Part shown: piece by piece, positions 713 through 44,503 of the stretch
Numbering within the stretch: the stretch's first letter is position 1
Layout of the letters: each line of letters begins with the position of its first letter
Assembly: GCA_028753945.1 (NCBI GenBank)
Contig: JAPNXP010000012.1
Location: 2,294,001 to 2,358,000, forward strand
Origin: Hexactinellida sp. DTS-2022
Lineage: Eukaryota > Porifera > Hexactinellida
Length of the DNA: 64,000 nt
Reading direction: 5' to 3'
Notes under the pieces: model-generated
Told to the model about the DNA's origin: nothing
The model's database searches: none
Seen by the model: the letters and a program-made list of their open reading frames with translations, nothing else
Made by a program: the position numbers and the translations under genes

Positions 713-2053
713 ATGATTCAGAATATATCCAGGTCCAACGGTTGTAATGTTTGCTTTGATAAGAGTGTTTATTATTGTTCAGAATGTGGTCATTATTATT
801 GCAAATACTGCAATGAGAAAGTCCATCAACATCCAGAGCGGGTAGATCATAATCCCAAATTTGTAAATAATCGAGGCGACCTCTTTAGATTCTACCCAAG
901 AAGAGCTCAGTATCTCACAAGATGAATCCATTACGGAAAATTCCCTTTCAGTTGAATTGAACAATCGTTCTTACAAGCTGAAATTATTGCCACTTTCGCT
1001 GAAAGATTTCTTATTACAGCCATTAAAAACTTTTAAAAAGAAATTATTCAAGCTACACTTGATGGTAGGGATACCCTTGTCCTTTATCCCACCGGGAGTG
1101 GAAAAGGCATATGTTTTCAGTTCCCACCAGTATTTTTAAAGAAGAAGGCTATACTCATAACACCGACAATCAGCTTAATGCAGGATCAAGTTAACAAACT
1201 AAATGGTCTTGGTATCCAGTCAGTTTATTTGGGCTCTGCTCAATCTGATAAACAAGCTGAAATACTTGGGTTGGATCCTGATAGTGAAATATCTCTTACC
1301 TTTGTTACTCCTAAATGGATTAAAAAACCCTGTAATCAATCTAAGGTTAAAGAACTCAAAAGGAAGAAAAAATTAGCTTTGATTGCAATTGATGAATCGC
1401 ACTTAGTAAGCGAATGGGGTGATTTCAGAAATGCATTTTCTGAACTTTGAGAATTAAAGTATTCGTTTGTTGATGTTCCCATTATGGCACTTTCTGCCAC
1501 TGCCACTACTCATGTTGAAGCTAAAATTAAACAAATTCTTAGGAACCCAATTATCAACAAAGCATCCATCAACCGTCCCAACATTACACTTATTGTGGAA
1601 GAGCTGCAACATGATAAGAATATTGGGCATGCCATGCAGTTTGCAAAGAGAGCGGCGCAAATAGCTGATAAATCTTCCGTTATCATATACACAGATTTCA
1701 TCGCTGACATTGGGCCAATCGTATGTAATCTTCATGATATTGGAATTGAAGCTACGGATTATCATGGAGAGATGGATACGACCTCGAGATGTGAATCGTG
1801 TCGAAAATGGAATTCAGTCGAAATTCCGATGATTGTGGCTACAAAAGCCCTTGGAATGGGCATAGACAAACCAGACATTCGGAAAGTTATTCGAAATGGC
1901 GTTCCTGAAAATATGTTAGCATGGGTACAAGAGTTAGGTAGAGCAGGTAGAGATGGGAAACAAGCGTGTGCCACTATTTTGTATAGAAGAACCGATATTT
2001 CTTATGTAAATGCTTGGATTCTCAATAACCTACATAACAAGGAAAGTTGTAAC

Positions 2054-2936
2054 CAGGGGCGTCGGAAGCGTGAAATCGGGTAGGGGGCAATCAGAACAGA
2101 CAAAAAGCTAATTCTTAGTAGTATAAAGTTCCAGGGAATGAAAGGTTCACGAACGAACTTATTGAACTTGAACTGAACGAACTGAACGCAGGGCTTTTAA
2201 GCAATTCACGGTGAACGAACTGAACGAACGCCAACGGTTTCCGAACGGCAATTGAACGAACTGAATTGAACGAATTGAACGGATTGAACGAACTGAACTG
2301 AACGAACTAAACTGAATAAAGATAAATTAGAAATATTGATCCATTAAATATAATAGGTGACTGCAAAAGTGGTAATTCAGGACATCTCTAGTGGACTCAT
2401 GTCTGTTAGCTTAGATTCTAGCTTCTTAACCTGAACTTCAATAAAGCTTGGAGTATCGAACAGTCTAGCATAAACGGAATAGTTCGACCCACTCACTGTA
2501 CACTGAACTAACTGAACTGAACGAATTGAACGAACTAAACGAACTGAACGAACTTAATTGAACGGATTGAACGAACGCGGGTCAGCCCATGAACGAACTG
2601 AACGAACGCTGGAGGAGCTGAAGTTAGGAGGTGAACTTGAACGAACTGAACGTGCGTCGATTTGAGATGAACTGAATTGCATCAATTCTGTCCGTTCGTG
2701 AACCTTTCATTCCCTATACTATAAACCCAAAGTGATTTTATGTCTTTTTTGATAGTTTCACTTCGGATAAGAGCAGTGGTATCATGACATTTGAACTCAA
2801 GTGTATCATTGGTGTTGTTATTTCATCTATTTGGACAGGGGAAGGGGCTCAGGCGAGGGGATGCACAGATGAGGGGGGCACCGAGATTTTTGAGGGGGGC
2901 ACGTGCCCCCCTGTGCCCCCCCTTCTGACGCCCCTG
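2054..2936. mobile_element. hAT-type non-autonomous insertion inside the helicase
   Basis: It is 883 bp and flanked by the perfect 8 bp direct repeat GTTGTAAC at 2046-2053 and 2937-2944. The ends are inverted: CAGGGGCGTCGGAAG on the left and the complementary CTTCTGACGCCCCTG on the right. An 8 bp duplication and CAG-type ends are typical of hAT elements. There is no transposase inside. Removing the element plus one target copy (891 nt) rejoins the helicase in frame. Confidence 0.92.
2150..2715. repeat. GAACGAACTGAAC tandem-like array
   Basis: Many imperfect, irregularly spaced copies of the words GAACGAACT and TGAACTGAAC fill the centre of the hAT-type insertion. The array starts and ends near the phrase GAATGAAAGGTTCACGAACG and its complement, so the array itself sits in an inverted frame. 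Confidence 0.8.
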
Positions 2937-3569
2937 GTTGTAACTACATTCTTATGGAATATTCCGACTCTTGGAGATATGTACAGGCACACCTTGCTGG
3001 TGTATGCCGAAGACGATTATTACTTGACCTATTTGATGAGAAAGATACTCAAACTTACTCATGTGGAACCTGTTGTGATGTATGTAGTTTACAGCAGAGT
3101 GCAAATATTGCATTTGAAGATATGCGCCGAGAGTTGGCAGTATTAATCGATGCATTAAATCAAGTCGGATGTAAAGGAGAAGTCAAAGTTGCGGAGTGGA
3201 TAAGAGGTTCCAAAATTTCATGGACGGATGAACATAATAAGAAAGTTATGTCTTATGGGAATCATTGTGGGAGAGATATGCATTTTTGGAGATTATTCAT
3301 AAGGCAGTGCAGTGTGAAGCAGCTAGTGAGAAGTCACCTTCGGTCACTAATCAAAACAAACGGAAACTACTCTGTATATAGGGTCATTTTACCTACAGAC
3401 AAGGGACAAGAATCAGTAATCAAAGAAGTTCCAGTGATGCTTCCAAGGCTCATAGGACCTGATGAATTCATCATGAAAAAGATATCTCTATTATTAATGG
3501 CCTATCCTTAAATGCAGAAAGTCAGCCGACGAAACAAAACAGAAACGGAAAAAGGTGTCATATCCTACG

Positions 3570-3985
3570 AGTGTTATCTTAGCGGCGGATTCGCAGACCT
3601 CACGTTTATGCTAATAACTCAAAAAGTTTACGCTGTACGTCAAAAATTTTAACATCAGCGGAAAGATGAAAGTTGTGACAACCCATATATAATCCCAAAA
3701 TGTCAAAATTCCTTAAGATGACTCAGCAATTTTCGCTCAAATATAGACCTCGGATTTTCCATAATAACTCAAAAATTATTCATCAAATCTAATTTTCCTT
3801 TTAATCACATGTCTATCTCACCTATGACAACCTGTCATGCAAATTTCAAAACAAAATATTCATTTTTGAAAAAATATTATTCACATAAATTTCACTAAAA
3901 TCGGCTTACAATGATGATTTCCAATATCCATAATGTTGGATATGTTGTCATCTAATAATACAATTGATAATAATGTATTTGATTT
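3570..3985. repeat. Left terminal inverted repeat of the DDE-OTU element
   Basis: It pairs with 14655-15090 over nearly its whole length with small indels. It includes the phrase CTCACCTATGACA and an AAAACAAAATATTCATTT stretch. A related arm, truncated at its outer end, is at 48880-49124. Confidence 0.85.
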
Positions 3986-5249
3986 GCGTCACAGTGTTCA
4001 CAGGAATTAAAGTTTTTGGTACCTCTGAAGAATAATTAATGACGCATTCCTAACTATATCAGGATTAGTGATTACTTTCTGTAAACAACCTTACACAATA
4101 CAAACAACTTCATATACAAATATATTTGGAATGCAATATTCATTAAGAGAATAGAATCAAACATATAAACAATATTATGGTTACTACAACAATGTTAGGT
4201 ATTTTAAGCATCTCCAGGTTTTTCCCATTTCCATAATCTGCGTAACTTCTATCTGAATGATCTTACTTGTGGCCATGTCCCTTCTCTCCAAATATACGTA
4301 TTTGCCTTTAAAGAGAGTGAATCTCATATAAATGTAAAGCAACATATTATCTCAGAATATGACTTACCAACGAGTGCATGTTATTAAAATGGTGACAAAA
4401 TATTAGTAATGCTTTATATAAAAAGATCGAGATAACCCAAGTTATTCTAAAAAAGTAAGATAACTACTTAGTAGAACATGGAAATATAGAGAGAACTAGT
4501 TTATTGGTTTAGGATTTAACACATTAATGATAATATGCATGAATTCCTTTCACTGATACGATATTAAAAGGGCGCCATTAAATATAACAGGATAGTACAT
4601 CTACAAATTGTGGTAAAACTATTGCAACTCTTCTAAAACTCTGCCTTGTTCAATTTAAAAAATAATTAACTATTATTTTCGAATTTAACAGAAATAATAG
4701 GTTCATAATGATTCCCAATATTTCGTATATATGTTGTAGGCGAAATTGAGTACCAGGCGAGATTGAGTCTCAATTTCGCCTGAAACTCATTCTCGCCTAG
4801 GCGAGATTGAGTACCAGGCGAAATGGAGTCATATTACTTATAGAAAATTTTTAACTAAATATTATGGGTTGTTATAAATTGATTATATCCAGATCTAATC
4901 CCGCTATTTGTTCACTTCCAAATGTTAAAATACTAGGTAATCAAGTATGCTGAATACGAATTTGACACTCACAAATTTCTATTATGTCTATTTATTGTTG
5001 TTATTTAAAATATAGTAAAGACTTACAACTGGAATTTGAAAACGATTGACCCATTTACAAATTTATATTACCTACAAATATTTATTCTTGTTATTGTTCT
5101 TGTTGTTGTTATTGACAATATAGGTAACAAGTTTGTAGAATATTATAATTGAACTAGAGACTAGCTTAAGACGGTTATTTTAAGTAATTGCACATGCTAA
5201 ATACGAATTTAGAATTAACTACTTGCAAATAAGGGCTGTTTGTTGTTAA

Positions 5250-6512
5250 ACTTGGGGAATTAATTACTAAGAATAAGATTGAGATTTTAAAATATAACTA
5301 AGTAAGCAAACTAGTATCATATAGTTACGTATATAGATTAATATTGAAGACTTGACAAAATGAATACGAATCCTTTTGTAAGTTAATTATATTGCGTTGT
5401 AAAGTGTAAATTATACATGATAATTAATTAAGTGGAATAGTTAAGTATTCCCTAGCAAAAGCGAACGAGATTATACTGTAGGCTCGTATTGCCTCCTAAT
5501 AAATATTTATCCTAATCTACTCGCGAATTCAAACCATTTAACTCATGCCACCAGTTTAATCTCCAATACATATAATTTTCAATACATTCACCATAAACAG
5601 AACATAATTAATCGCGACACATTCTCAAATTAATGTTGAGTTTATTGATAAGCTGGTTGTGTTGTTAGTTGGTTTAATAGCTGGTTTTGCTGTTAAATCA
5701 GCTTATCAATATGACTCAGTTGAGAATGTATAGTGAGTAAATGAGTAATTACCTTCTAATTATGTAGTAAATGTGTTTAAATGTGCATCTATAAATTAAC
5801 AATACAAAGGCGTAGGCTCTGGTATGGTTGGTAGGGCCATGGACATACAAAAGTTTGCCAATTGAATCACCAATGTGCAATGGCCTCCCAATGTCACCGT
5901 AATGGACTAACCAATGGGCCCTACTAATCCCATTCCGAGACTACGTCAAACTCCGTATGTGGGAATTCTCCGAATCTAAGATGTTGACATTTTTCAGACT
6001 ACTTTCTCAATATTGGAAAATAGTCTAAAAATAACAATTGTTATAATATGCAACCAGAGATGGGGCCAAATCCCTATGGAAATTATAGTTTTAAAGATTT
6101 TAAGATTAATCCCAGTCCATTCAGAATGGGATTGGGAATTAATCAGAAAATCTCAAACTCAAGGTCAGTGTGTGGGAATTAAGGAACTTCTAAATGATAT
6201 TATTTCGAAACTGCTCTGAATTGGTGAATGACAAATACGAATGTTAATCCAAGTTATTTTATTTAATTCTGCAATCTACACCAATTTGCATGTCTACAGG
6301 GTCTGAAGGTCATTTCGTTTCTCGTACCTTCAAACAAACAATAAATGTGTATTGTAATTATATGTAATATAAATTATATAATTGATAATAAAAATTATTT
6401 AGAAGCTTCATTACATTTTACTTTCACTAAGTAATATAATCTTTGGACAGGTGCGAAGTCAGCCCTAACTATAGTGGGTGTCAAGTGCGTAGGAGTAAGT
6501 ATAGCCAGGGAC
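5250..6512. other. Interior of the nested element, no gene seen
   Basis: AT-rich sequence with a short local inverted repeat around 5640-5720 (TTGATAAGCTGGTT and its complement). A block at 5805-5955 is bounded by GGCGTAGGCTC and GAGACTACGTC, possibly a short MITE. No convincing coding sequence. Confidence 0.4.
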
Positions 6513-7268
6513 CATAGGCGTCGAACTTTCCAATTTTTCTGAAAATCTGGGGGGGGCAGCCAGAGAACAATTAAAAGACATTTATTTTATTTTGCAATTA
6601 ATACGCAAAAATCACGTATAAATAGTAAATAAATAACGTAAGTGAGATGTAAATTTACTGAGAAAGCTTTACTATGCAACTTGAAATTTTTGGCAAATTA
6701 AAAAGCTGTTTTCCTCCACTGTTTCAACTAATTTTCAACAGAAACGCCAGCTGAGGGGACGAAATCATACTTCCCAAACCTACAGGGATTCCCTGTACAG
6801 TACAGGGATTTAAACATTTTGGCGGTTCAGTACAGGCGTACAGGGATTTTTAATTTACTAATTATGTGTCAAATAATGCCTAAAAATGTCTACAGTTATG
6901 ATAGTATATTCTGCCATGCATTCTGCATTGACCACATAAAGGCACAACTGGTTTATATATATATTCAAGCGTTCAGGGATTCCCTGTACAATATATAATT
7001 CAATGCTTTCTCCTTTCCAAGTACTAATTTAGCAATGTAAGTGAATAGTAATTCCTTGGACGAGCGAGCGCAGCGAGCGAGAGATTTTTGGGAAGTGTAC
7101 ATGGATTTTGGCCAATGTACAGGGGAAAATTGGAGCCCTGTACAGGGACATGACTCAAATAGGTTGGCAGGTATGCGAAATCTGGGGGGGGCGAGACCTA
7201 TGCTGCCCCCCCCGACATTTTTCCGGGGGGGGCAGGCCCCCCCCGCCCCCCCTGCAACGACGCCTATG
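6513..7268. mobile_element. MITE of the CATAGGCGTCG family with 8 bp target duplication
   Basis: 756 bp with terminal inverted repeats CATAGGCGTCG and CGACGCCTATG, flanked by the perfect 8 bp repeat CCAGGGAC (6505-6512, 7269-7276). G-rich and C-rich tracts sit just inside the ends. A second family, rich in CTGTACAGGG and ending GGTTGGCAGGTATG, is nested at about 6765-7178. The 8 bp duplication suggests hAT-type mobilisation. Confidence 0.92.
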
Positions 7269-7905
7269 CCAGGGACCCTAATGGGTGCTCAGCAGAAAAC
7301 CTCTTACACACTAAGAGGACTTGTTAAATGTTAATTCAGGAGCACTTTCTATAAAAAAGGTGCTATGTAACGACTGAAAAAGAAATAGCACAGTAACACA
7401 TATTGACTGTGAAAGCTACTAATATGATTACATTCTTGACTGAGCTTAGCTAAAAAGAGCACAAGCCTAGTATATTGATTATCTTTCTTTTGGATACAAA
7501 CAACTTGTGACCTTCATATGTTCTATATTTTGAACAGCGATTTTATTTATATTGAGCCAAAGTAAAATCCATGTTAATTTAAATATCAATTACTAAATAG
7601 CATTAATATATTTATTATACGTATTCTATTATTAGCCAATATATCATGTTTAAATAAAACACAAGATCTGAAAAGTACATATATCAACAAAAATTGTGTT
7701 GAGTGAAAACATAAATAAATTACAACTGTTATTGAATACTCACATTGCGATACTTAATAAACAGTCGGAGAAATGCCAGCATAAACATAGAGACAAAGTA
7801 GTCGGAAAATTCTAAACATTTGATATTTGGAATTTTTGACAAATGCCGACATACGGAGCCGGACAAATGCAGGCCTCTAGTTAGTTTTTATCTCAAATAG
7901 AGATG
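7269..7905. other. No gene seen
   Basis: AT-rich interior of the 5.6 kb nested element. There are only short open frames without motifs. Confidence 0.4.
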
Positions 7906-8240
7906 CGTTTTTTATCTCCGAATTACTTTAATGTAATCCGGACAAACACATACCTACTCACACACACACACTCACAAAGAACTATTGTGCTTTTAATATA
8001 TATATTATTGTGGTCTGCTTAAGCACTGCCGGATTTGGTAGCCCGCGAGACCATAGGCGGGCTAACAATAGTGCATTCTTTAGGATAAGGTTATCCACCA
8101 GTTGTAATTCTGGTAGTTCAATAATTGTTTTGCTATCTCGTAACGCTTCTTATTCAAGAGGTTTTGATCCGGGGTCCCGGCTGTCTATTAACGTCCACCC
8201 CAAATAATATTATGAGGGGCGAAACGATACCTACAGACTA
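7906..8240 (-). mobile_element. Fragment resembling the 5' end of the Helitron-like family
   Basis: Read on the minus strand, a T/G-rich start with a GT microsatellite, TTTGTCCGGATT and TTAAAGTAAT resembles the 5' parts at 33399 and 59751. The next 200 bp (CACTGCCGGATTTGG onward) is unrelated to those copies. The relation rests on about 90 bp. Confidence 0.4.
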
Positions 8241-8259
8241 GACTCAATTCACAGGTCTA

Positions 8260-9670
8260 GACTAAATTCGGTTAGCCGGGTGACCGCTTGACAGCTGCTA
8301 ATATTGGTTAACTGTTACAGATTTAATTGAGCAGTTAACCGCTCTGTTAATCTAGTTAAATAATATCAATGTAATTGCGTATATAAAACACTAATTTAAA
8401 TTATATTAATTTTGTTAGAATATGGTAATCTTAAATATATGCAATTCCATATGTATGTAGTAAATTCCTATAAACCAAGGGTGGGGTTGTTAACCGTTCT
8501 GAGGCTACAATTATTATTCGTTTTGTTTATACTACAGTGTAGGACTCAGTATTATAAAGTATTACTCCATAAGTAGTCATTAACTAATACATTTCGCAAT
8601 TTGGGCAAGTTAGAAACAGTGTAGTTACAGAAAATATATAATGGGTCATTGTAGTGATGAGAAATGGATTTATGATCATCATTTTCAACAAAATTCAGAT
8701 ATTTTAATTATTTATACTGTACTTCCTCGCTAATCCCAACAGAGGTGTTCCGATTTAAAAATTTCTGTTCCGATTAGTGAAGTAATACATTTTCTATTGG
8801 CCTCTATTACATGAGATTCCGATAATTTGGATCAAACTTGTCCAAAGCATTTTAATCCAACTAAACATGTAGTATACTACCTAATTTATTGTCTGAGACT
8901 TATTAATTTAGGATTCCATTGTAATATACGTTGGATCTCCTGTTCGGACTAGCGAGGATGTACTGTAAGATAATTTCCAAATAATACTGCTAGCTGCTGA
9001 TTATCAACAGGCCGGCTAACTGGTTAACGAATATGCAACCGCTAGCCAGCTGGTTAACAAATCCAGCCTTGTATAAACTATAGTTAAGGGTGGGGTTGGT
9101 TAACCATTTTGAAGCCACGGTTACGATTATCTTCACACTACGGTTAACCGGTTAACCGCCACTGAAAGTTATAACAAAATATATAGACATTTCTCAGAAA
9201 ATATCTAAATTGTAGTAACGAAAAACACATTCTTTTAGCCAAGTACTCTATTAGTACAATTAACTGCGGTACAAGTTTATCACTTCAGGTTACTTCTACA
9301 CTGTGTTGTCACCAAAATATATCTGTGACTATGGGTAATAAGATAAACAATTATTATATTCTGAACAAAATGCGTGCAAATTCACACTGTTATCCAATAA
9401 TTTGTACTTCTAATTGTAAATTGTAATATTAACATATCGGTTAACTGATCACTAAAATCCGTAACAGTTAACCGCTATTAGCGACGGTTAACCGAATTCA
9501 GCCTTGATTTAATATTTTCTGAAGGACGAAATGTAGCAGTAGTAAGGAATAAAAACAAAGCTGAACCTTACTAATTATGTAGTATAAATAATGTTCTACT
9601 GTGGTGATCAGCATGGGCGGTTGACTGGCTAACCGTGGCGAGAAATTGAATCGTAACCGTAGCCCCAGAA
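8260..9670. repeat. Cluster of GGTTAACCG-containing repeats
   Basis: Variants of GGTTAACCGGTTAACC recur near 8275, 8330, 8490, 9020-9060, 9095-9160, 9440-9495 and 9620-9655. Some carry the flank AAGGGTGGGGTTG or its counterpart AATTCAGCCTTG. This looks like several nested or decayed short elements with GTTAACC-rich ends. I could not set exact limits. Confidence 0.5.
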
Positions 9671-9764
9671 TTTACCATTGAATAAAATATTGGGAACAAC
9701 AAGATACTCTCCCCTGACTTGAGGGTGGGGTCGACACCTCCCTCCTGACGCTATACAGTAAGTG

Positions 9765-9897
9765 CATAGGCGTCGTAAATGCAAAGGTCAATCCTTCGGG
9801 CAGCCAGGAAACTCCGGGTATAGTATTAGTAGCATAAGGGCAACCCTTCCGGGCCGCCCGGACATTTCCGGGCACCCGGGCGAGTAACGACGCCTAT
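9765..9897. mobile_element. Short CATAGGCGTCGT-family MITE
   Basis: The left end is CATAGGCGTCGT and the right end ACGACGCCTAT, with G/C-rich sequence between. A possible 8 bp repeat AGTAAGTG lies before it (9757-9764) and 9 bp beyond the right end (9907-9914), so the right limit is uncertain. Confidence 0.6.
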
Positions 9898-10287
9898 TAG
9901 TAACTTAGTAAGTGGCTTAGAAATTAGTATGTATCTCAAATACAAGTGTCACTAAGTGTCTCTTTAACAACAAACAGCACTTATTTGCAAGTACATATGT
10001 AGTTAATTCTAGACTAAATTCGTATTTAGTATACTATGCAATTACTTAAAATAACCGCTAGTCTCTATGTTAATTTGGAATATTCCTTAATTTTTTTACC
10101 TATATTGTAAATAACAACAATAAATAGACATAATAGAAATTTGTGAGTGTCAAATTCGTATTCAGCATACTTGATTACCTAGTATTTTAACATTTGGAAG
10201 TGAACAAATAGCGGGATTAGATCTGGATATAATCAATTTATAACAACCCATAATATTTAGTTAAAAATTTTCTATAAGTAATATGAC

Positions 10288-10880
10288 TCAATCTCGCCTG
10301 GTACTCAATTTCGCCTGCGACATATATATCCCATTTGGGGTTGGCGCATTCATTAACTCTTCAAAAGTTGATCCATTCCCTGAAAATCCAATCCAACGTG
10401 TTCCCAACGGACCCAAGAATACCCAGATATCTATATTAAATAACAAAGCAGTTGCAAAGAGTTCAAGATCAGTAGCCCATTTCCCACTCTTCCTCATTCC
10501 TGTTTTTTGACCCAGTCTTGTACATTTCGATAATAACCCTGCGTATAAACATATTTTGTGCGTAAATATTTATTGCAACTCATACTTAGGTCACCTAGCA
10601 TATTATCAATTATTAGCTCCCTAAACTCTGCATGGAAATCTTGACTACCAGTGATGAGATAAGAAATTGTCGAGAAATAGAAATTTCCATCGCCAATTAT
10701 ATATTGAGTCAAGTTTGGCGAATAACTGAATAAACTTTCTTCATTATCTACAATATCATTATAGGAGTACGGTAACTCCTCACGAAAGTGAAACTTCCAC
10801 TTTTTACATGTAGAAATCTGCCAGTCTGTATGTGGCGGACGAAAGCTTGGTAGTACATATCGTATTAGCCCCGTCTCAAC
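10288..10880 (-). pseudogene. OTU-like cysteine protease domain, copy 1 (catalytic Cys replaced)
   Basis: The motif reads GDGNFYF where OTU proteases have D-G-N-C (10494-10712). After a frameshift the frame continues with WATDLELFATALLF and WVFLGPLGTRWIGF (10288-10497). Upstream, about 60 residues with CKKWKFHF and ELPYSYND join it to the transposase. OTU domains remove ubiquitin; inside transposons their role is unknown. The Cys to Phe change would abolish catalysis. The sister copy at 47394-47816 keeps Cys. The last coding bases lie next to the end of the nested element at 10321. Confidence 0.8.
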
Positions 10881-10984
10881 TATTTCCTCATCTGTAATTA
10901 TAGAAGGTCACTCGCATAACCTTTGATGCAGTTTGCGTACGTAAACTAGATAACTTTTCACATTTTCGTGGGACAAATTTACGC

Positions 10985-12490
10985 TTAATTATGCATAATT
11001 TATTTTTCTTCTCAACTTTTTTCTTCTTAAATGTTTGAAATTCATATGATTTAGGTTGTAATAACTGCAATACACTTTCTTTTTTCGTGACCATTCTTCA
11101 ACACTTTCTTCTTCCAAACTATTTCTAACTCTTTTATGACATTTAAATACCTTATTCGCTCGCGGGTGAAAGGCAAATTGAAACGCTGATAACCTACTTA
11201 CTATACCAGGATATAACAATTGTATCAAATCTCCAGGCCTCAAATTATTTTTGGATTCCAAAATATTTAACTTAACAATACGCATCCAATTCATCACAAT
11301 AGCGTTGATAAAGATGCTAGTCTAGTTCTTATCCGCTACACAAATAAGTCCTAAGATTATTCCACTCCATAAAGGTAATATAGGTAGGTAGAATGTTAAC
11401 AAGTATTCTATTGGCTCAGGATTATAACAAGGAATTGGATCTGCATTTTTTCCTGGATTATTGTTGATCCAAGATTTGCAATTTTTTGCAATATTTACAA
11501 AATGTGTGCCGAAAGGGGATTTTTCTCTGTATGTTTTACTATCCTTGTTATCACTAGCAATATTATTATCGTCCATATGTTCTTCCACCAAATATTCATT
11601 AGTCTCTGAGGAGTTTACGGAATCATTACTAATGAATGTTTCTAGCAAATGAGTATGTGTCTTTCCTATTGCACTTAAAGAACTACTCATAAATACAATG
11701 CATAAAGATTGGAATAAATTATTGATACTTGTCATTTCAACAGCGCGTACAATAAATCCGATACAAAGTATAAACAGTTTTCTCACATCTTTTTGTAGTT
11801 TAAATTTATTATTTATATGAAATCCTATGCTGTGCATTAAATGAGCCGAACATAAGTGAAGAATTACTTTAAAGTCCGTCTCATTAACTGCAGAATTTAC
11901 ATCTAACATATTCCAACACTTATGGAGATAAGTATCTATATCACACTTGATAAAAATACTACAAGAACTGTGAATCAAAACCCAGCTGAAATCTATTTCA
12001 ACTTGTGAAATGATTAGATCGCCCAGTATTTTCTTTGCATCAAGGGACCATTTGTGCAAAAAATAACTTATTTCAGCACTAGTGTGTCCTGAACTAATCA
12101 TTTCTGCTAGTGGAATTGGACTAGTGGAGTAAGTAGGATGTCTTACAGTAAGAGCGTAATAGAATACTTTCTTTAGTGAGGGTTGTATTTTCCTAACAAT
12201 TGATCCTGTGGCATCCAAGTGAAGAAAAATTCTTCTATATTTAAACAATTTCAATATTTTGAATTGATCTTAAGTGTACATATGTACAATAAAAGGATTA
12301 TGACTTAGTGACTGTATGTAACCTCTAACATGAAGACCAATAACACTATTTCTATAATACTGTTGTAAGCTAATTAACTCAGTCCAGTTATCATTAGAAT
12401 ACCTCTGTAAACTAGACAAATCAAAATTTAGCTTTTCGCAGGACTGCAGAACTTCTAACCTTATTTAGGTTACCATAATTAAGTGCTAAG
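10985..12490 (-). pseudogene. DDE-type transposase, copy 1
   Basis: The main open part (11322-12254) contains LHLDATGSIVRK, then QVEIDFSWVLIHS, then LHLCSAHLMHSIG. These are the acidic and C/H motifs of an RNase H-fold transposase that in many invertebrates is fused to an OTU domain. An in-frame TAA separates it from an upstream stretch ending PFIVHMYT. An in-frame TAG (11322-11324) separates it from the continuation INAIVMNWMRIVKLNIL (10989-11297). Both stops are also present in copy 2. The 310-residue central part is identical in the two copies. It is likely inactive, or relies on another copy. Confidence 0.8.
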
Positions 12491-12554
12491 TTTGTGTTCT
12501 CTACCGAATCAAATTGATCATAGAAATAAGCATTTACAGATGTATCTGTACCCA

Positions 12555-13136
12555 TCTATCTAATTCTAACCTATGCGAATGTTATAAATTTCGTGAGTGC
12601 CAGTTGTATTATCGAAATGCTGTTCAGATAAGGTTCCATAAGCTACATACTCCACAATAATATTATCACCAATTTTGCACTCCAACGGCCCTTTCTTATT
12701 ACAAATGTAAATTCAAAACAATCTTTAAACTTACACGCTGCTTTAGCTTTAAAAAAACAGCTATTTTGTTTTCTACTACTAAGTATATTAACCTTTTTGT
12801 ATTGAAAAGAAAGAACACATACAAAATTTCCCTCGATTTTTGAACTAAATAAAATGGACCAATCTTTAGAAAATACTACAGAGTCTCCATGAATTAGTGT
12901 AATACATTTCCATTCCATTCCACTTACCCAAAAATTCACCAGATTTCCTCACTAAACATGGATTGTTCAACTATGACTTCATTACCCAGAGTGCTGTCAT
13001 CTACTGATGGTACTAGCAATTTGGACTCAGGGATATTAGAGGTAATAACAATTTCAGGTTGCGGGTCATCGGTAGATGACAATATCGTGACTTGTTGATT
13101 TGAAGAAGAAGAAGAGGTATGATGAAATTTAGGCAC
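12555..13136 (-). pseudogene. N-terminal zinc-finger-like part of the DDE-OTU protein
   Basis: A Ser-rich acidic N-terminal tract (12936-13136) is followed, after a short interruption, by a segment with CFFKAKAACKFKDCFEFTF (in 12643-12939). This C-x3-C-like arrangement is typical just upstream of this transposase type. A frameshift then leads to IVEYVAYGTLSEQHFDNT, ending at a stop near 12560. The region is absent from the truncated second copy. Confidence 0.5.
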
Positions 13137-13582
13137 AGAGATTCATGAATTGAGCTTAAAGTATCTGAACTTACTCGACAAGCTAGAATAAAGCTAGTGA
13201 ATAAATCTAATTGTTGGACTGTGATAGCTATATATGAATTCCCAAATAGCTCTAATATCCTACAACTAATGTTTTCAACTAAATCCACGCTTCCACTAAG
13301 TTACAATTTCGCCTGATTAGTCGAATCCATTGCATTGATTCCATTAGACAGCAACTAAACTTTTTCGACTGATCGGTGGAGTTTGTCATCCACTAGCATG
13401 AACTCACCACTAACAAGCGGACACTCTAAGCTGAAAATTTCATTGCATCTAACCATAGACTATTATTACAGTTTACGAATGACCAAAAATGGCGATGAGT
13501 CCTCCCTGTTTGGGAGAAGAAGAAGCTATCTTAGACATCAGACCGTAAAGTTAGCAGTCATCTCAACCAGATGCCAATAAAC

Positions 13583-13975
13583 CTAGCAAACTGTTATTGG
13601 CACGTCTCGCTGTAAACTAGGAAAACTGAGATCGAACTCCTTCAAACTTATCTTACTGAGCTCTACAGTGTCAGGATATGAGCTAGCAGATATTAACTGA
13701 GTACTGATATGCTCTACTACCAATTGGGATACATCAATTGGAATGATAGACTTAAGCGTATTGATCATTTCATTTACTAGATGCTGAAAGTTTCCTCTAT
13801 TCAATCTCCATTTGGAGCTGAGAGAATCGCACTTAGTAGCCTTGTTTTTTTTCAAAAAAGAATAATTGACAATAATTGACAATTTGTCTCCTTTGTTCAA
13901 AGCATCTCTTACGCTATCGAAGCTTTCATAGCCGAGTTTCTGGAGAGCTTCGACGAATTGCTCTATTGAATTCAT
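13583..13975 (-). CDS. Unknown 130-residue ORF inside the DDE-OTU element
   Basis: It starts at a true ATG and reads as a mixed helical protein with no motif I recognise. The N-terminus contains ALQKLGYESFDSVRDAL and a Lys/Asn-rich centre. No signal peptide or membrane span is evident. Its place between the transposase and the right terminal repeat makes it a candidate accessory protein of the element. It could equally be a chance frame, because the region is not present in copy 2 for comparison. Confidence 0.35.
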   Translation of the reverse strand: MNSIEQFVEALQKLGYESFDSVRDALNKGDKLSIIVNYSFLKKNKATKCDSLSSKWRLNRGNFQHLVNEMINTLKSIIPIDVSQLVVEHISTQLISASSYPDTVELSKISLKEFDLSFPSLQRDVPITVC

Positions 13976-14033
13976 TACTAGATGTAATTATTATTATTAT
14001 TTTAATTATTAAATCAATACATATATACTACTA

Positions 14034-14210
14034 CAGTAGAACCTCGTTAATTAATACGAACACGGTTAATTAATACGAATTTCTGGATAAGAAGAACAGT
14101 TCCTCAAAATCAGGTCCCTACAATGGAGATTGAATGGGTGTTACTCCGGTTAATACGAACTCCGAGTAAAGCGAACAACTTTTTATCGTCCGTTGGTATC
14201 GACTGCATAT
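14034..14210. mobile_element. Partial pogo/Tigger-like MITE
   Basis: It follows TA and begins CAGTAGAACCTCGTTAAT, with repeats of TTAATACGAA inside. These are pogo/Tigger-type ends. I see no matching right end nearby, so it seems truncated. Confidence 0.6.
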
Positions 14211-14654
14211 AGTAATATCATATAGTTATGTTAGTATTCTAGGCCGGAGGTATTTCCTTCCGCCGGCCTTGGGCATCGAAATCTTGAGGGCCACGATATT
14301 GTAAAGTAAAATTTAGATTTGATCCTTCAAAATGTAGTGGTAAAAATATCGGTCCGGCAATGGCCTGCCCTGGTATTATTAATTAATAAAAAAGTGGCTA
14401 AGGCAAATTAAATAAATAAACTCACTAGAATTGGAAGAATCGACTTGGAAGAATAAAGAAGAGAGCTGAAAATGAAATGAGGAGAAAATGGAGATGAGAA
14501 ATATGCTGCATGCTGTGAAGTCAAAAAGATGTTTGAAAAAAAATGAAAATGTGAGTTTGAAAAAAATGAAAATAAATTTGAAGAAAATCAGGTAGAAGAA
14601 AGGCAGTGTATATTTATAGTGAGAAATCATTGAATTATAAACAAAGGACATAAT

Positions 14655-15090
14655 AAATTATTATCAATAGTATTACGTATTAGAGTTGACAACATATTCT
14701 ACATTATGGATATTGGATAGGTATGCAAATCATCATTGTAAGCCGATTAGTGAAATTTATGTTCATAATATTTTTTCAAAAATGAATATTTTGTTTTGAA
14801 ATTTACATGACAGATCATATCATAGGTGAGATAGACATATGACTAAAAGGAAAATTATATATAATGAATATTTTTTGAGTTATTACGGAAAAACCGAGGT
14901 CTAAATTTGAGCGAAAATTGCTAAGTCATCTTAAGGAATTTTGACATTTTGGGATTATATATGGGTTGTCACAACTTTCATCTTTCCGCTGATGTGATAA
15001 TTTTTCACGTACAGCGTAAACTTTTTGAGTTATTAGCATAAACGTGAGGTCTGCGAATCCGCCGATGAATCCGCCGCTAAGATAACACTA
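14655..15090. repeat. Right terminal inverted repeat of the DDE-OTU element
   Basis: The inverted partner of 3570-3985. It ends with TCCGCCGCTAAGATAACACT and carries a duplicated ATCCGCCG word near the end that the left arm lacks. Confidence 0.85.
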
Positions 15091-15477
15091 GTATCAGAAA
15101 TTTTGATAAGTTATGGCTGCGAAAAAGAGAAAATTTCAAGATGATTATCTTCAATTTGGTTTTGTTAGTATATGTATTGGAACAGTGAAATGCTATGAGT
15201 ATTAGTTCATTATACACTATTCTAATCCTTGACATTAAAGTATCCTTAGTATCCAAACTTTAAAATTATTTGTACAAACTTGGGAAGGGGAAATGCAAAA
15301 AAATGTGTTGAAAAAGGGGGAATGAGATAAAAAAAGTGTGGGAAACACTGCACTGTGACTGCTGTCTATGATCTATCAGTCTTGAAAGTGAAACCTAGAC
15401 AATTAATCATGGTTATTTTGCATTTACTCAATTCAAAATCTTATAACAATTTTTAGATGTTTTGAAACGTTGTTTAG

Positions 15478-15905
15478 AGCTGTTGTATGACAGTTTACTT
15501 ACCACTATTACTATAACCATTATTTACCATGGATACTTTCTATCCATGACGGTTTACTTACCGTCTTTGCAATGGCTTCACACTTTATACTTCCTATCAC
15601 ACATCCAGCACTTATAAGGATTCACATCTCAAATTTCAATTGGAAATGTCATTAGGCCCAAAATATCTAATACTAATATGGAAATTATTAAATGCTATAT
15701 TGATGCAATTTCAAATTATTAAAGTAAATTAGAATTTGAGATGTGAACCCTTATAAGTGTAGGTGTGTAATAGAAAGTATAAAGTGTGATGCCATTGCAA
15801 AGACGGTAAGTAAACCGTCATGGATTGAAAGTATCCATGGTAAATAATGGTCATAGTTATAGAGGTAAGTAAACTGCCATGGTAAGTAAGCCGTCATGCA
15901 ACAGA
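15478..15905. repeat. Fold-back repeat with GACGGTAAGTAAACCGTC motifs
   Basis: Left arm 15478-15650 pairs with right arm 15720-15905 around a loop of about 80 bp. The outer ends are CTGTTGTATGAC and GTCATGCAACAG. Each arm holds smaller palindromes built on GGTAAGTAAAC. No target duplication was found. Confidence 0.8.
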
Positions 15906-16530: not shown

Positions 16531-17043
16531 TATAACATAGATTCTGAAATTGTACATATATTCCCTCGATGTTATATAGCTAGTATTATACATACGCATG
16601 TTATAATTATGATATACGGCGCGTGTAAATTACTTTGATAAAATTGCAATCGATTAGATTTTCACACATGCAATTGTAGGATGCATTGCTGTGAATATAA
16701 TTAGAATTACCATAAAAGAATTTAGGTTTATTCATAGCCTACTATAATAATGCCAATGTATAGAATCGATTTTTCTGACAATGGATAGAAATCAAGTCAT
16801 TTTTGTTGACCAACCATAATATTTTACAACTTTTTAAGAAGATACTCTATTGACATCTATTATTAATTAACTGGCTTGCATCGACTAATATTCTTTTTTA
16901 ATTGTAATTTTTGTTTGTTTGTTTGCTGAAAAGTGACCAATTTGTTCAATAACTCAGTTACTGCAATATTTTAATTCTATCTTCTATTATAGTATTTCTC
17001 CATTTACTAACTATTATTTTTTAAATTACCGATTAGCTCTCCG

Positions 17044-19847
17044 ATGCCGAATAAATGCTCTGCACCGAATTGCAAAAGCAATTATTATCCGGATGAGCCA
17101 TACATACCAGTATTCGAACTACCTAACCATCCCGAAGAATTACGACAGCAGTGGTTCAATGCTCTTCATCGTGAAAACATAACTTCACTAAAACAAGTTT
17201 ACGTATGTATCCATCATTTTCGCGAAGATGATATTGAACATACTTATAAAATTCCTAATCCAGACGGATCTTTTACTGAAGTTCCAAGAGGAAAACCAAA
17301 ACTCAGGAAGGGCTCTATTCCATCCTCTCTACCAGGCTGTGCTCCTTATTATTCGGAATTATGTTCAAAACCCGCTCGGTTATCTTTTGATTCAAAAGAA
17401 GAAGTACATTTTCAAAAGGCCATCGTGCTAAGTCGTGAATCTCAAAAAGCTGAGGAGTTGAAATATCGTATAACATCACTAATTACCTTAAGAGTTTATG
17501 TCATCTATCACTCTACCTGTAGACTGGCTCTTGGTTTTCAGATCACCGTGTTCAACTTATCAAACTTTTACAATCAGATGATCTCACAATTTCTATTCTT
17601 TATTCCATATCTATTGATTCCTCTCTAAATATTCGGGGCTTTCAGAAAGACCAGGAAACTGTACTTTCTATCAACACCTTAAATGATACTAGGCAAATCG
17701 CGTCCTTAATTAATGAACTAGAAAGTAAATCTTTTAATACACCTTTAAAGACAATTGCTTCTGATATTTCAAACGCTACAATTCAAATACGAAATGCTAT
17801 CCAAAAATTGGAACCAGAAATACTTGAGTCTTCTAAATCCCTAAATGATGATCATTCTGAAAACACTACGACACTATCTCGCCTACAAATTATTCTCTGC
17901 CAATTAGAAAATGTACTTGCCCCTAAGAATAGAAGAAGGTACAATATTATTACTCAAGTAATTGCTCTTAAATCTCATCTCATATCGCCAGCCTGCTATA
18001 ACTATCTTCAATCATTAGACTGCTTAGTCCTACCTCATTATCATACTCTTCAAAAGCTTTACTCGTCTCTGGGCCTTGACTCAGAGTTCATGACATATTT
18101 GAAGCAATCAACTTCTCTCTTTTCTCCACAAGAAAAGAATGTTATCTTGCAGATGGACGAAATACATGTGAATTCTGACTCATCCTACAAAGGTGGGCGA
18201 ATAATTAACCCTCCTCTCAACACAGACACTCCAACAAAATCTGTATTCGCGATAATGGCATCAAGTTTACATAAGAAATGGTCAACGATTGTTCGTTTAC
18301 TTCCTCTTTCTAAAACTACTGCCCAGGAACTATTTCCTATTATTAGTAAGGTAATATGTGACGTCGAGTTAAATGGGCTCTCCGTTCAAGTCCTATGTAC
18401 AGACAACAATCCTTTAAATGTACGTTTGTTCAAACTTTTCTCTCCAGATAACAAGACCCTACAACACTGTGTACCCCATCCTGCGGATGTAACTAGATCC
18501 TTGGTTCTAATGTTTGATTTCGTCCATATTTTGAAGAGCGTTCGAAACAACTGGATAAACCTTAAAAACATTAATCAAACCTTCATCTATCCCGATCTTT
18601 CAAATATTTATTCAACTCGTATCACTTATCCTCTTCATATTCACACCGCGTCTTTTAATGATATTCGCAATCTCTACCGTTCAGAAAAACACAAGGTAGT
18701 GAAACTTGCTCCACGTTTGACAGCGAAATCATGTTGGCCAACTACATTGGAACGCCAAAATGTTAAATTAGCACTCAAGATCTTCGACGAGTCTACTATG
18801 GCGGCAATTTCACTTACACCCACTCACAACAACCAAACGCACGACTTCATCGATATCATAGTGAAATTGTGGAAAATTTTCAATATATATCGACCTAATA
18901 AAGATCTTCGTTTTAAGGATGATTTCTCAAGAGTACTCAGTCACAATGATAGCCGACTTTCTTTTATTACCCGGATAGTTTACTGGATTGATGCTTGGAA
19001 AGCTTTACCTGGAAAGGAAGGTAAACTAAGTCCACAAACATTTGCAAGTCTTAAACATTCCTGTCTCGCACTTACCTATCTCGTCAATCACTTAACTTCA
19101 GAATGCGGGTTCAATTATCTCCTATCATACTTCTTGCAAACAGATCCAATCGAACACCACTTTGGATTATATAGAATGTTGTCTGGTGCAAATTATCACA
19201 TTTCATTGTGTCAAATTCTCGAATCAGAGCGTCGCTTAAAAGTCTCAAACATCTTCAAGTTATTTTCTCAACAACCATCTTTTAAACAAACTTCTTTGCA
19301 AAATTTTATACAATCCTTTTCTCCTGACGACGAAGATCGTTCACATAATGTAGATTTAATTCCTTTTCTTTCAGATCTACCTGACTTATCTACAATTGTG
19401 TTTGATACTGCCACCTTACAGTCTCTAGCATTTATTGCTGGTTATTCTGTACACCAATATTTAAAACGGGCTCATAATTGCGAATTTTGCAGAGTGTTAT
19501 TAACTATCGATCAAGATATTATATTTGATACTTCCACTTTCAAGCTAATAGAAATCATGGATCGTGGCGGACTGAAATGGCCATCAGAAATTGCCTTGCA
19601 TCTCGTTGTTTTGGTATGGAAAAATTTTATTTCTCTAGAGCGTAACCAACAAATATGGAAGTAGTTTGTTGTTGGAAGATGCCGGAACATTCTTGTTCAG
19701 TTATCCAAGAATATTCTTGAAAATACAGATGGCGACCATTGGCGCAATACATGTTCCCAGTGTAACACGGAAGGTTGGGATATCGCACACAAACTGATTT
19801 TTGTTACTTCTAATTGTATTATTTCAAATAAAAGTGAAGAACTATAA
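17044..19847 (+). pseudogene. THAP-domain P-element-like transposase A
   Basis: It starts at ATG with a C2CH THAP zinc finger (CSAPNCKSNYY, later VCIHHF) over about 95 residues. A coiled-coil-like linker follows, then the RNase H-like core with MDEIHV, TDNNPLNVRLF and TDPIEHHFGLYR. These match the three acidic positions known in THAP9 and the P element. DRGGLKWPSE precedes the C-terminal part. An in-frame TAG (19662-19664) interrupts the C-terminus, which continues in the same frame with WRNTCSQC and ends at 19847. Between 17467 and 17542 the frame is lost: either two single-base indels, or a 74 nt intron (GT at 17468, CAG at 17541) whose removal restores the frame exactly. Unlike copy C it has no introns in the two core positions. 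The TAG makes an intact product doubtful. Confidence 0.88.
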
Positions 19848-24589: not shown

Positions 24590-24842
24590 TACTTGAATTG
24601 TTTTATAGACTATTTTTGTTTTTAACTAGTTATAAGTGATTAAAGTATGCATGAAAATTCGAAGATGCAGATATTTACGTTGTATCGTAAATTTACTTCC
24701 TATATTTTAAGCCACAGGTTACCTGGATATAATTGTTAATTAAGATTTATGATTTACTTTACAAATATAATTGTTTTGTCTTTTGAATAGTAGACACTGC
24801 TATTATCTTAGAGTTTCAATTAGGTGTTAATTTTGAATTCCA

Positions 24843-27809
24843 ATGTCGGATTCTGATGAAATGGCCCCATGGTATCACACAGGTATAAGTCGTAACAGAG
24901 CAGAGGAAATGCTTGTACAGGCTGACAAGAATGGAGCTTTTATTGTCAGATCTAGTGAAAGTATAACAGGTGCTTATGTTTTATCTGAATTTTTTAATCA
25001 CCGAGTTCATCATTATCGTATTCTACCTTCTGAGGAAGGTTATTTTATTGAATGCCCTGGCACAACTACTCTAACTTACTTTAAGTCATTGGTTGAATTA
25101 GTCGACTATTATGGTAAACCAAAACGAGGATTGGTTTGTGAATTGACTTATGCTGTTGAACAGGATGAGGATGACGATGAAGATAATAGGTCTATTTCTT
25201 TAGAATCACATACAAAGTATTTTAATGCACTTTCTGCGAGGATGCCGCTTCTAAAACAAAATCATGATTTTGAGAGACAGTTTAGAGAATATTTTTCAAA
25301 GCATCTTCTTATTGATTCTTTAAATTATACAAATAACAAATCTATCCCTGAAATGTTTTATCGTCTCTTTGAGAATGACATCTCAGATATTAACTCTAGC
25401 ATCGAGTTATTTCAAAAACGCTTGGAGTATGCATATGAGCTTTTCTTTTTAGCATTGGGTAACTCCAATATTCAGTTTTTATATTCAAGCAAAGTCAGTG
25501 CTTCAAAGGACTTTACATCTATTATTTCAACTTTAAAAAATACAAGCGAACTAATTCATACTACGGAGGAATTGCACAATAAATTGATTATACAACTCAA
25601 TAATCAACCTCGATCTGAAGATACATATCAAATTTTTAAAAAAAAAGATGATGATGTCAATTCCAGAGCAAACAATTTGGTCGACTTTGGGAAGGACAAT
25701 TTTGATGTACAAGTTGGTCCTAAATTAATTAAGGCTGTTATTGATGTTAATATTTATGACGACAAATTGACTATTTTCAGTAACAATATTAAAGAAGAGT
25801 TTTCATGCCTGGATCTTTTAAAGGTAAATAAATGTCAGGATAATATTTTAGCTCTTATCTTATTTAAATCTTCCGGTGGCCAGGTGAGAATCATATTCCC
25901 CAACTTAAAATTAAGGGAAAAATTCTGTGAAATTCTTCAATTAATGGTAAAACAGCACAATTGCAAACTCGCTAAGAAAACATTGTCTCTATTCATAGGT
26001 ACCTGGAATATGGGCGAGGCAACACCTCCGGAAACTCTTGAACCTTGGTTGACAAGTAGAGGAACCGGAATTAGCATCAAGGGATTTAATGACAAGACAC
26101 ACGATCTTTATTTGATTGGAGTTCAGGAAAACGATACATTTATGCGAATTCCATTTAGTGATTGGCCTTCAAAATTTCGTAACCATATTTCAAACTTAAC
26201 AAAAATAGAATATAAAATAATTGCTTTTGAGCATTTTTGGCATATTGGATTAGTCGCGATAATCAAGGCAGACTTATATCACAAAGTTAGCGGTATTCAG
26301 CAAGCTAAGGTAAAGACTGGTCTTGGGAAGATTAATGTTGGTTCGATAGTTGGAAATAAAGGTGCGGTTGGTGTTTCTTTTCTAATTGAGAATACTTCAT
26401 TTTTGTTTGTTAACTGCCATCTCACTTCAGGACATGAGCGAAAGAGATTGGAAAAGCGGAGAGCAAATTATCGTGATATTATGAAAAATTTAATATTTAG
26501 AACTCCTTTTCCTCACTGTGATATAACTAATCAATTCAACTACATCTTTTTTTTCGGGGACCTGAATTATAGAATTGATCTAGAACCTGAAACTATATTG
26601 GAAAAAATTCTGGAAAGTGATTTTCATTACCTCAAAAGACATGACCAGCTTACGAATGAATTAGAAAGAAACAATGCATTTTTTGGCTTTGAGGAAGCAC
26701 CGATTCGATTTCCACCAACTTATAGGTATATCCTTGGCAGCAGAGATTGTTATCATATATTAAAAAAGAAAGCAGTCAAGGACCGGATTAATGTGCCTTC
26801 TTATTGTGACAGAATTCTCTTTAAATCACACCTGAATAGCCCAATAATTCCAACCTCTTATGGTTGTACTGAAGAAATATTTACTAGTGATCACTCTCCA
26901 GTTTTTGCATCTTTCGTATTGGGCATCCACCCACAATATAAATCAAAATCTCACACTCATTTATCATCTATTTCAAATTGCCCAATTTCGATCAAATTTC
27001 AATCTTTCGAAGCACGGATTACACGTTCTAACGCTAGCGAAAATTACTACTTTCAATTATTCAGTGATTGCTTTGAGGGAATCAAGAAGAGCAAACATTG
27101 TACTTCTGTTCAGGAATTAAATGCTGGATCAAATAATGTCATTGCTAAGTGGACATCTGCGGAATTCCCTGAAGTTATTTTACCCTTAATTCAAGAAAAA
27201 GAGTTCTTAATTCAACAAGTAATATTTATTCAAGTTAAATGTGTTGGTGGAGATGATGACACCTTTGGAGAAACTCATATTTCTTTAAATGACTATGTTG
27301 GCACTACATTGCATTTCGATAAAACTCTAACTTATCAATCATATCCTGTGGGGTCAATTAATGGCACATTGAATATTTTTAATTATTCCTCCAACAATGA
27401 CATCTTGCTTGGCGATGATAGAAATATTCACTCTAGATTACAAGTAGTGATCTCGTCAGATACAGAAGGCGTTTATACTGACACACAAGACACTGATCTT
27501 CCAATATTACATAACGTTTCGGCACTAGTTAGGACGTCAGTTCTTAATTCAGATTCCAATTTTTTTTCTTCATTTTCTATTGATGAATCTATAGAATCTC
27601 TACAAAATACTGAACTTCAAAAGTTTTTGTTAAAATATGGACTAGGAAAATATTACCCTCTCCTTAAACAAGCAGGATTTAAAGATACCATTCAGCTCTT
27701 TTTCATTGATGAGAAATATCTATCTGGTATGGGTATTAGTGGTGATGATGGGAAAAAACTATATTCTTTAGCTCAGTACATTGGACAATATTTCTGTCTG
27801 GTAAAATAA
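24843..27809 (+). CDS. SHIP-like inositol polyphosphate 5-phosphatase (SH2, 5-phosphatase, SAM)
   Basis: 988 codons from ATG to TAA without an intron. An SH2 domain covers residues about 9-105, with the phosphotyrosine-binding Arg in FIVRSSES (R36). A helical middle follows. The 5-phosphatase domain covers about 380-690: GTWNMG, IGVQEND, VNCHLTSGHERKR, GDLNYRID, PSYCDRILF and TSDHSPVF. All catalytic motifs of the family are present. A C2-like region follows. A SAM domain ends the protein (about 920-980, LQKFLLKYGLGKYYPLL), as in SHIP2/INPPL1 rather than SHIP1. The family removes the 5-phosphate of PtdIns(3,4,5)P3 at the membrane downstream of tyrosine-phosphorylated receptors. It is shorter than vertebrate SHIP2 because the Pro-rich tail is small. 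The lack of introns could mean a retrocopy that stayed functional or lineage-wide intron loss. No decay is visible. Confidence 0.95.
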   Translation: MSDSDEMAPWYHTGISRNRAEEMLVQADKNGAFIVRSSESITGAYVLSEFFNHRVHHYRILPSEEGYFIECPGTTTLTYFKSLVELVDYYGKPKRGLVCELTYAVEQDEDDDEDNRSISLESHTKYFNALSARMPLLKQNHDFERQFREYFSKHLLIDSLNYTNNKSIPEMFYRLFENDISDINSSIELFQKRLEYAYELFFLALGNSNIQFLYSSKVSASKDFTSIISTLKNTSELIHTTEELHNKLIIQLNNQPRSEDTYQIFKKKDDDVNSRANNLVDFGKDNFDVQVGPKLIKAVIDVNIYDDKLTIFSNNIKEEFSCLDLLKVNKCQDNILALILFKSSGGQVRIIFPNLKLREKFCEILQLMVKQHNCKLAKKTLSLFIGTWNMGEATPPETLEPWLTSRGTGISIKGFNDKTHDLYLIGVQENDTFMRIPFSDWPSKFRNHISNLTKIEYKIIAFEHFWHIGLVAIIKADLYHKVSGIQQAKVKTGLGKINVGSIVGNKGAVGVSFLIENTSFLFVNCHLTSGHERKRLEKRRANYRDIMKNLIFRTPFPHCDITNQFNYIFFFGDLNYRIDLEPETILEKILESDFHYLKRHDQLTNELERNNAFFGFEEAPIRFPPTYRYILGSRDCYHILKKKAVKDRINVPSYCDRILFKSHLNSPIIPTSYGCTEEIFTSDHSPVFASFVLGIHPQYKSKSHTHLSSISNCPISIKFQSFEARITRSNASENYYFQLFSDCFEGIKKSKHCTSVQELNAGSNNVIAKWTSAEFPEVILPLIQEKEFLIQQVIFIQVKCVGGDDDTFGETHISLNDYVGTTLHFDKTLTYQSYPVGSINGTLNIFNYSSNNDILLGDDRNIHSRLQVVISSDTEGVYTDTQDTDLPILHNVSALVRTSVLNSDSNFFSSFSIDESIESLQNTELQKFLLKYGLGKYYPLLKQAGFKDTIQLFFIDEKYLSGMGISGDDGKKLYSLAQYIGQYFCLVK

Positions 27810-32072: not shown

Positions 32073-33273
32073 GATGTTCTTTCTATATATTATTTAAAAT
32101 TATTAGGTCGCTAATCAATTCTACGTTTTATTAACGGTTTTTTATGTAAATCAGCCATCTTCTCCATATTGTAATTACTCTATAGTATACTGAATACTAT
32201 AGAACATATCACATAAGCCCACTATCTGATAGATAATGATTGTTATTTGGTTTGTAAGTGAATATGTGTTTCATACAGTGCAATGAAAACACTTGAAGGT
32301 GGAACATTTTACAAGTTGATGATGATGTCAATTCTATTATTCAAAATAGTAACGTAAATACTACACGTATTCCTATTTCTATTTGTACTAATTAATCTTT
32401 AATTAATTTAAACATTTGAAGTCTTCACAATTCAAACATTAATTAAATTAATTACACTAAGATGAAATGTAATTTGAATATTGAAATTCTAGTTAAATTA
32501 TAAATTGGGGAAGTGCAATCAGAAGGAGCACACTCCCATCCCGTCTGTGAGGGGCTTTTTCTATTTTATTTTTTCTTTACGAAAGGCAATTTAAGATACT
32601 ATTATCTTTGTGTTCACGAAATTACTTTTGTGCCTATTTATTTGATAATTATAACGAAATAACATTACTATTTTATTCCTTTCTAGTTTAGTTCGATTTC
32701 ATTAGAAAGATTAATGCTACAAAGATTCACTCTCAAACCACATGAAATCTATGACAATGCGACAATACACTTTGACAAGGACTATAAAGTAATTATGAAT
32801 GTTCTATAAGAGATCCAAATTATGCCGAAATTACAAAATCTAATGTAAAAGAACATCGAGGACTCTGTATTCGGAATCGGGGGGGCAGGGGGGGCAATAG
32901 CTCCCCCGTCGGGGAAATCCTGGCGCCACCCCTGCACCAACACCTTGAGTGAAGCGGAGCCTTCATCTTCACATTATCCAAGTCCTCTGTTTGATTCCGA
33001 GCCTAATAGTTATCAAGATGCTCATTACGATAGCGAGGTAGGACTAGAAGTGGAAATTCAAGATGATATGATCAATGCGAGCAGTAGAACCCTTTTTCCT
33101 TATCGGAGGACAACTTCTAAATTTGTGTCGATTCAAAGTCACCCGCCTTTTATCGCGGAGAAAGAGAAGTTAACTGCTTTGAATGAGCTTACATGACCTC
33201 GAGATACCAACTTAACTGATGTTACGATACACGTATTCATAGTATGCTACAATTTAAATTACGATATGTTTTA
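32073..33273. other. No gene accepted
   Basis: AT-rich sequence with a G-rich block at 32878-32905. A short acidic open frame (32945-33196, beginning at TTG) has no recognisable domain. Confidence 0.4.
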
Positions 33274-33398
33274 CAGATTACTTATATGGAGCTGAGTTAC
33301 TGGTAACTGACTTCAGTTACCAGTAACTGAACTAGCAAATATATGATATGACTTCAGCTAATAAAAGTCAGTAAATTTATTAATAATATTATAATATA

Positions 33399-44141: not shown

Positions 44142-44205
44142 CTAAAAAATTAAATTTGCTTAAAAGTGCATAAGTATGTACTGCAAGTGAAACAACAGTA
44201 TTTAC
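44142..44205 (-). other. Intron 2 of transposase C
   Basis: 64 nt with GTAAAT donor and TTTTTTAG acceptor, phase 1. Its removal gives SYQGGKVIGDTDP, aligned with SYKGGRI in transposase A, which has no intron here. Confidence 0.85.
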
Positions 44206-44440
44206 CTTGATAAGAAATTGCTGGTGAAACGTGGATTTCGTCCATATTGAGAATAACATGTCGGTCCCTCTCACAAAAATCAGCAGTTAACTTTTTAAGC
44301 AGATGTAAATATTCGGTATCCAATCCTATACAGGAGGATAGAACTCGAATTGACTTTGTTGTTGGAAGAATAAGACAATCCAACGATTGAAAAAAACGAT
44401 AGCAAGCGGGTGATATCAAATGTGCTTTTAAGGCAATGGC

Positions 44441-44503
44441 CTAGAAGGAAATAAGAGGTAAACAATAAAGCACTACATGAGGTTAGAAAATTTATAATCT
44501 CAC
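44441..44503 (-). other. Intron 1 of transposase C
   Basis: 63 nt with GTGAGATT donor and CCTTCTAG acceptor. Its removal joins RRRYNVVTQ to AIALKAHLISPACY, which is continuous in A and B. Confidence 0.88.

Follow-up and report, generated by a model that had tools for sequence, protein, structure and literature searches.

Our analysis of a 64,000-nucleotide stretch of Hexactinellida sp. DTS-2022 DNA (contig JAPNXP010000012.1; hereafter the window) indicates, with a probability of roughly two in three (0.68), that positions 3566-15093 hold a degenerate cut-and-paste DNA transposon, originally about 5.9 kb long, whose terminal inverted repeats measure about 414-442 bp and enclose a DDE-OTU gene on the minus strand, MuDR/Mutator-like affiliation being the likeliest. 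This outer element, copy A, was later split by a nested element, and its core sequence probably replaced that of a second, partial copy (copy B).

The two arms of copy A (3566-3979 and 15093-14652) are identical in 386 of 412 ungapped columns, with 26 mismatches and a further 32 gap columns, a pairing far beyond chance (blastn E = 6.9e-159). This bears out the inverted arms of about 420 bp that an initial annotation of the sequence had placed at 3570-3985 and 14655-15090. The DDE core and OTU-like domain that it described between the arms were likewise recovered, the former as a D..D..C-x2-H core at 12464-10989 and the latter in two parts, 10907-10322 and 4732-4659. The features are as follows.

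3566-3979, plus strand: left terminal inverted repeat, at the 3′ end of the minus-strand gene (blastn and alignment)
4659-4732, minus strand: C-terminal piece of the OTU-like domain with the presumed catalytic histidine (NHYEP), severed by the nested element
4733-10321, no strand assigned: nested inverted-repeat element of 5,589 bp, foreign to the outer transposon (filled site in copy A versus uninterrupted site in copy B)
10322-10907, minus strand: first part of the OTU-like domain, with a frameshift inside; the catalytic cysteine position is F in copy A
10989-12464, minus strand: DDE-like transposase core, read in a single frame that two stop codons interrupt before its end
12643-12948, minus strand: cysteine-bearing N-terminal stretch (C-x7-C-x4-C) of the presumed transposase, read by eye, in a frame that differs from its neighbours
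13583-13975, minus strand: ORF of 130 aa from ATG
14652-15093, minus strand: right terminal inverted repeat, the 5′ end of the gene (blastn and alignment)
45818-49123, plus strand: copy B, with core, OTU region, 3′ tail and one truncated arm, the 5′ part missing; inverted relative to copy A (blastn and alignment)

Coding content and superfamily of the outer element

The transposase-like core carries the motifs LDATG (D84), EIDF (D158) and CSAH (C205; the C-x2-H signature), with a D-D spacing of 74 and a distance of 50 from the second D to the C-x2-H histidine; the third acidic residue (the final E) was not located in the core. Within it, the minus-strand interval 12269-11325 is an open stretch of 315 codons, which none of 1000 Markov simulations produced. 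The extra ORF that had been reported at 13583-13975 is present, with modest statistical support: 14 of 1000 Markov simulations of 12475-14651 produced open stretches of 134 codons or more. This ORF gave no family match above a cut-off in Pfam or NCBIfam, and the cysteine-bearing stretch at 12643-12948 had no Pfam match. The ORF may encode the N-terminus of the transposase or may stand as a small ORF of its own; together with the shorter minus-strand open stretches upstream of the core (13300-13013, 13142-12936 and 12948-12643), it may be what is left of a disrupted N-terminal portion of that gene. Codon-usage scores separated the frames only weakly and carry no weight in these readings.

The OTU region shows the motif pair GDGN(C/F)YF ... 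NHYEP. The cysteine of GDGNCYF is kept in copy B and is F in copy A, and NHYEP is found in both. Its similarity to known OTU domains is weak: the Pfam OTU matches (E = 0.059 and 0.089; 13.7 and 14.3 bits) fall below the cut-off of 23.3 bits, and a query peptide joined from both copies matched OTUD1 (4bop_A) in phmmer with E = 0.0061. Since the core and the OTU region lie on the same strand with frameshifted lysine-rich sequence between them, they were probably parts of one fused protein. Both copies are dead, as reflected by in-frame stops, frameshifts, the replaced OTU cysteine in copy A and the loss of both ends in copy B.

The C-x2-H motif and the long repeats point to the hAT/P/MuDR/Kolobok/Dada cluster, and a MuDR/Mutator-like origin is the likeliest, though unproven, superfamily assignment, with about an even chance of being correct. 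The core matched no Pfam transposase family, and NCBIfam returned nothing for the three sequences tried, leaving the core unrecognised in these collections. In the profile comparison that the initial annotation had proposed, no match of the core to the MULE profile PF10551 was listed at E up to 5, in a search whose HMMER filters drop most weak matches; as a positive comparison, the other MULE of the window (34956-36239) scored E = 2.2e-22 in Pfam. Pfam also includes a KDZ model, and no KDZ-type family appeared among the Pfam matches. The hhalign score of the core against the window's own MULE was 14.8, versus 18.7-27.5 for the ten best of 100 shuffles run for that pair; its raw score against a P-type transposase was 19.6. 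A PDB sequence search with a 315-aa part of the core returned nothing, and AlphaFold2 modelling of the core alone gave a mean pLDDT of 33.2 with no residue at 50 or above. Pattern searches for core relatives found three stretches in viral contigs and one in genome contigs, and those for OTU-region relatives found 12 in viral contigs; none was confirmed, in collections not meant for animal genomes.

Mutator-like elements such as Muta1, Phantom and Rehavkus are described with long terminal inverted repeats, which exceed 100 bp in many Mutator-like elements and are also found in the outer element. The published description of the active MULE Muta1 gives a triad of D214, D283 and E419 with a conserved H307 (PMC5225508); its D-D spacing of 69 is similar to the 74 of the outer element, whereas its distance from second D to histidine differs (24 versus 50). 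Mutator-like elements further combine a MULE profile with an 8-11 bp target duplication, neither of which was found here, and the outer element is therefore likened to Mutator in this work without being filed as one.

A core from another superfamily bearing an OTU tail (Ginger1, KDZ/Zisupton, Kolobok or P-like), outside the Mutator group, is a doubtful but serious alternative. The lack of a MULE profile match would fit such an origin, as would the description of Ginger1-1, -2 and -3_HM, which have OTU tails and whose inverted repeats measure 126-270 bp (PMC2836005). Ginger1 resembles the outer element in occurring in animals and in combining inverted repeats with a DDE transposase that bears an OTU domain at its C-terminus. 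However, its core is of the Gypsy integrase type, with an H2C2 zinc finger and a GPY/F motif (PMC2836005), whereas the core described here carries C-x2-H and gave no Pfam integrase match. The 7-8 bp target duplication described for KDZ/Zisupton (PMC12730594) was not found at the outer borders, and Zisupton is absent from a published list of C/DxxH superfamilies. Kolobok, for its part, is described as making TTAA duplications, and none was found at the outer borders.

The nested insertion and copy B

The footprint of copy A spans 11,528 bp and had been annotated as a large composite element. The uninterrupted site in copy B rules out a composite of 11.5 kb: the extra length is a nested inverted-repeat element at 4733-10321, inserted within the OTU coding sequence of copy A. 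Because this insertion is separate, the outer element measures not 11.5 kb but about 5.9 kb, that is, the footprint minus 5,589 bp and a further 6 bp. The arms of the nested element lie at about 4733-5019 and 10095-10321, share 97.7% identity over 222 bp (blastn) and pair more weakly as far out as 5250/9963. Set against copy B, copy A shows a flanking 6-bp duplication within a TA run. The ends of the nested element read GTYGYAGGCGAAATTGAG, its tip bears a small palindromic duplication at 4769-4828, and no protein family was recognised in the two of its ORFs that were scanned.

Copy B retains the order of copy A (core, OTU region, 3′ tail, arm), apart from 188 bp at 47842-48029 that are inverted relative to A, and contains about 190 bp of extra sequence at 48536-48726. 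This order supports the assignment of the arms to the core and backs the earlier proposal that arms and core form one element. That proposal had drawn on a second copy with core and arm. Such a copy, comprising core, OTU region and one arm, exists at 45818-49123; it is nevertheless cut at both ends, its arm is partial, it carries the 188-bp inversion and its core was probably copied. Of the two arms of A, the right one (177 matches, 9 mismatches) resembles the copy B arm more closely than the left one does (165 matches, 17 mismatches). Copy B ends beside an RPA1 N-terminal exon at 49149-49567 (Pfam E = 1.1e-17), an acceptor-like stretch of which directly adjoins the truncated arm.

The two copies differ sharply in identity along their length. 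Between A 12474 and 10813, 1,661 of 1,662 bases match copy B, whereas A 10812-10425 shows 351 matches, 24 mismatches and 13 gap columns (about 94%); the remaining shared segments range between 90% and 95%. A stretch with one mismatch in 1,662 bp next to sequence that has diverged by about 6% rules out copy B as a wholly independent copy. The sharp drop in identity at A position 10813 suggests that sequence passed from A to B, gene conversion or template copying having probably replaced the core of copy B. Because its core is near-identical through copying, copy B provides weaker independent support than is apparent. For stops common to A and B, a functional reading was rejected, since the stretch was probably copied between the copies.

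We consider it unlikely that the near-identical 1,662-bp stretch is an assembly artefact, a reading that concerns copy B only. Near-perfect identity on one side of 10813 beside about 94% on the other could arise in this way, as could the position of one end of the stretch at a non-homologous junction, but the stretch contains one mismatch, and gene conversion between neighbouring inverted repeats is a well-known process.

Relation to known DDE-OTU proteins and a possible mechanism

The fusion of a DDE transposase with an OTU domain is already known as such, and the outer element is a probable further case. The initial description of the element as outside any textbook superfamily was thus overstated, as Ginger1 elements with OTU tails (PMC2836005) and MuDR-6_HM (PMC6446971) had been published. 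MuDR-6_HM, assigned to Mutator group 14 from Cnidaria, is described with a Mutator-type transposase and an OTU domain in one ORF (PMC6446971). It resembles the outer element in joining a DDE transposase to an OTU domain and differs in being listed without inverted repeats, a comparison made by description only.

Human vertnin (VRTN) has been classed as an inactive OTU-like protein (PMC10318531); it is a host gene, likened to the outer element by this OTU-like classification only. A distinct vertnin-related group of DDE-OTU transposons, forming a superfamily of its own, would accommodate this classification together with a core that lies outside all curated families of Pfam and NCBIfam. We regard such a group as improbable: none of the titles and abstract openings surveyed links vertnin to a transposase, and the missing Pfam match is explicable by decay and divergence. 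Slightly less probable again is the more specific proposal that the outer element belongs to a separate, uncatalogued DDE-OTU group from which vertebrate vertnin was domesticated.

For the favoured reading, a degenerate and possibly MuDR/Mutator-like transposon, the ancestral gene would have encoded, in order, a cysteine-bearing N-terminal part, a DDE core with a presumed RNase H-like fold and a C-terminal OTU-type cysteine protease. The transposase would have bound the inverted repeats, excised the element and joined it to a new site through its putative catalytic DDE residues. The fused OTU domain may have deubiquitinated its own transposase, or else repair or chromatin proteins present where the DNA was cut, potentially favouring a stable transposase or efficient repair. 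A comparable role has been suggested for the OTU domains of Ginger1, which its authors proposed to act on repair factors during transposition (PMC2836005). At a later stage, the second inverted-repeat element interrupted the OTU coding sequence of copy A. The outer element is probably one more example of a transposase joined to a ubiquitin-removing domain, and it illustrates how nested insertion and local sequence copying can disguise an ordinary dead transposon as a giant composite.

Borders of the outer element and neighbouring features

The border alignment that had been proposed for the outer element revealed no detectable target duplication: the best candidate (6 of 8 bases, among lengths of at least 8) was equalled or beaten by 229 of 500 random place pairs. 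This absence possibly reflects decay. A blastn search of 3301-15300 against the window (E ≤ 1e-5, rows of at least 40 bp) returned no arm copies besides those of A and B; both arms are present in copy A only, and copy B has one. Transposon families of this kind normally include non-autonomous derivatives reduced to their ends, so arms without the core elsewhere, which the initial annotation would have held against a single element, would not count against it.

That the arms are a foldback structure or an insertion pair unrelated to the core is very unlikely: it would agree with the restriction of both arms to copy A, the lack of a target duplication and the 31 other inverted-repeat pairs of at least 60 nt in the window, but in copy B the succession of core, OTU region, tail and arm is that of A, and the window holds no additional arm match of at least 40 bp at E up to 1e-5.

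On the left, pieces of a RecQ-like helicase gene (1037-3511) with DEAD, Helicase_C and RecQ zinc-binding domains, the last below cut-off, are interrupted at about 2083-2900 and stop 55 bp short of the left tip of the outer transposon. About 400 bp outside the right arm lies a hairpin-like inverted repeat (15487-15880) of 117 nt at 93% identity, with 160 nt between its arms. Elsewhere, a second Mutator-like element at 34076-36667, with a clear MULE domain (E = 2.2e-22), has inverted repeats of 83 nt at 33272-33354 and 36915-36997. Three P-like elements (17011-19664, 37954-40060 and 42994-45396) all contain TNP-like Pfam domains. THAP domains were found in the first and third, only the ORF 37954-39435 having been scanned in the second, and the first two are flanked by inverted repeats of 174 and 186 nt. 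Finally, an uninterrupted 990-aa ORF at 24837-27809, suggestive of a host that is an animal or closely related to animals, encodes SH2, endonuclease/phosphatase family 2 and SHIP C2 domains.
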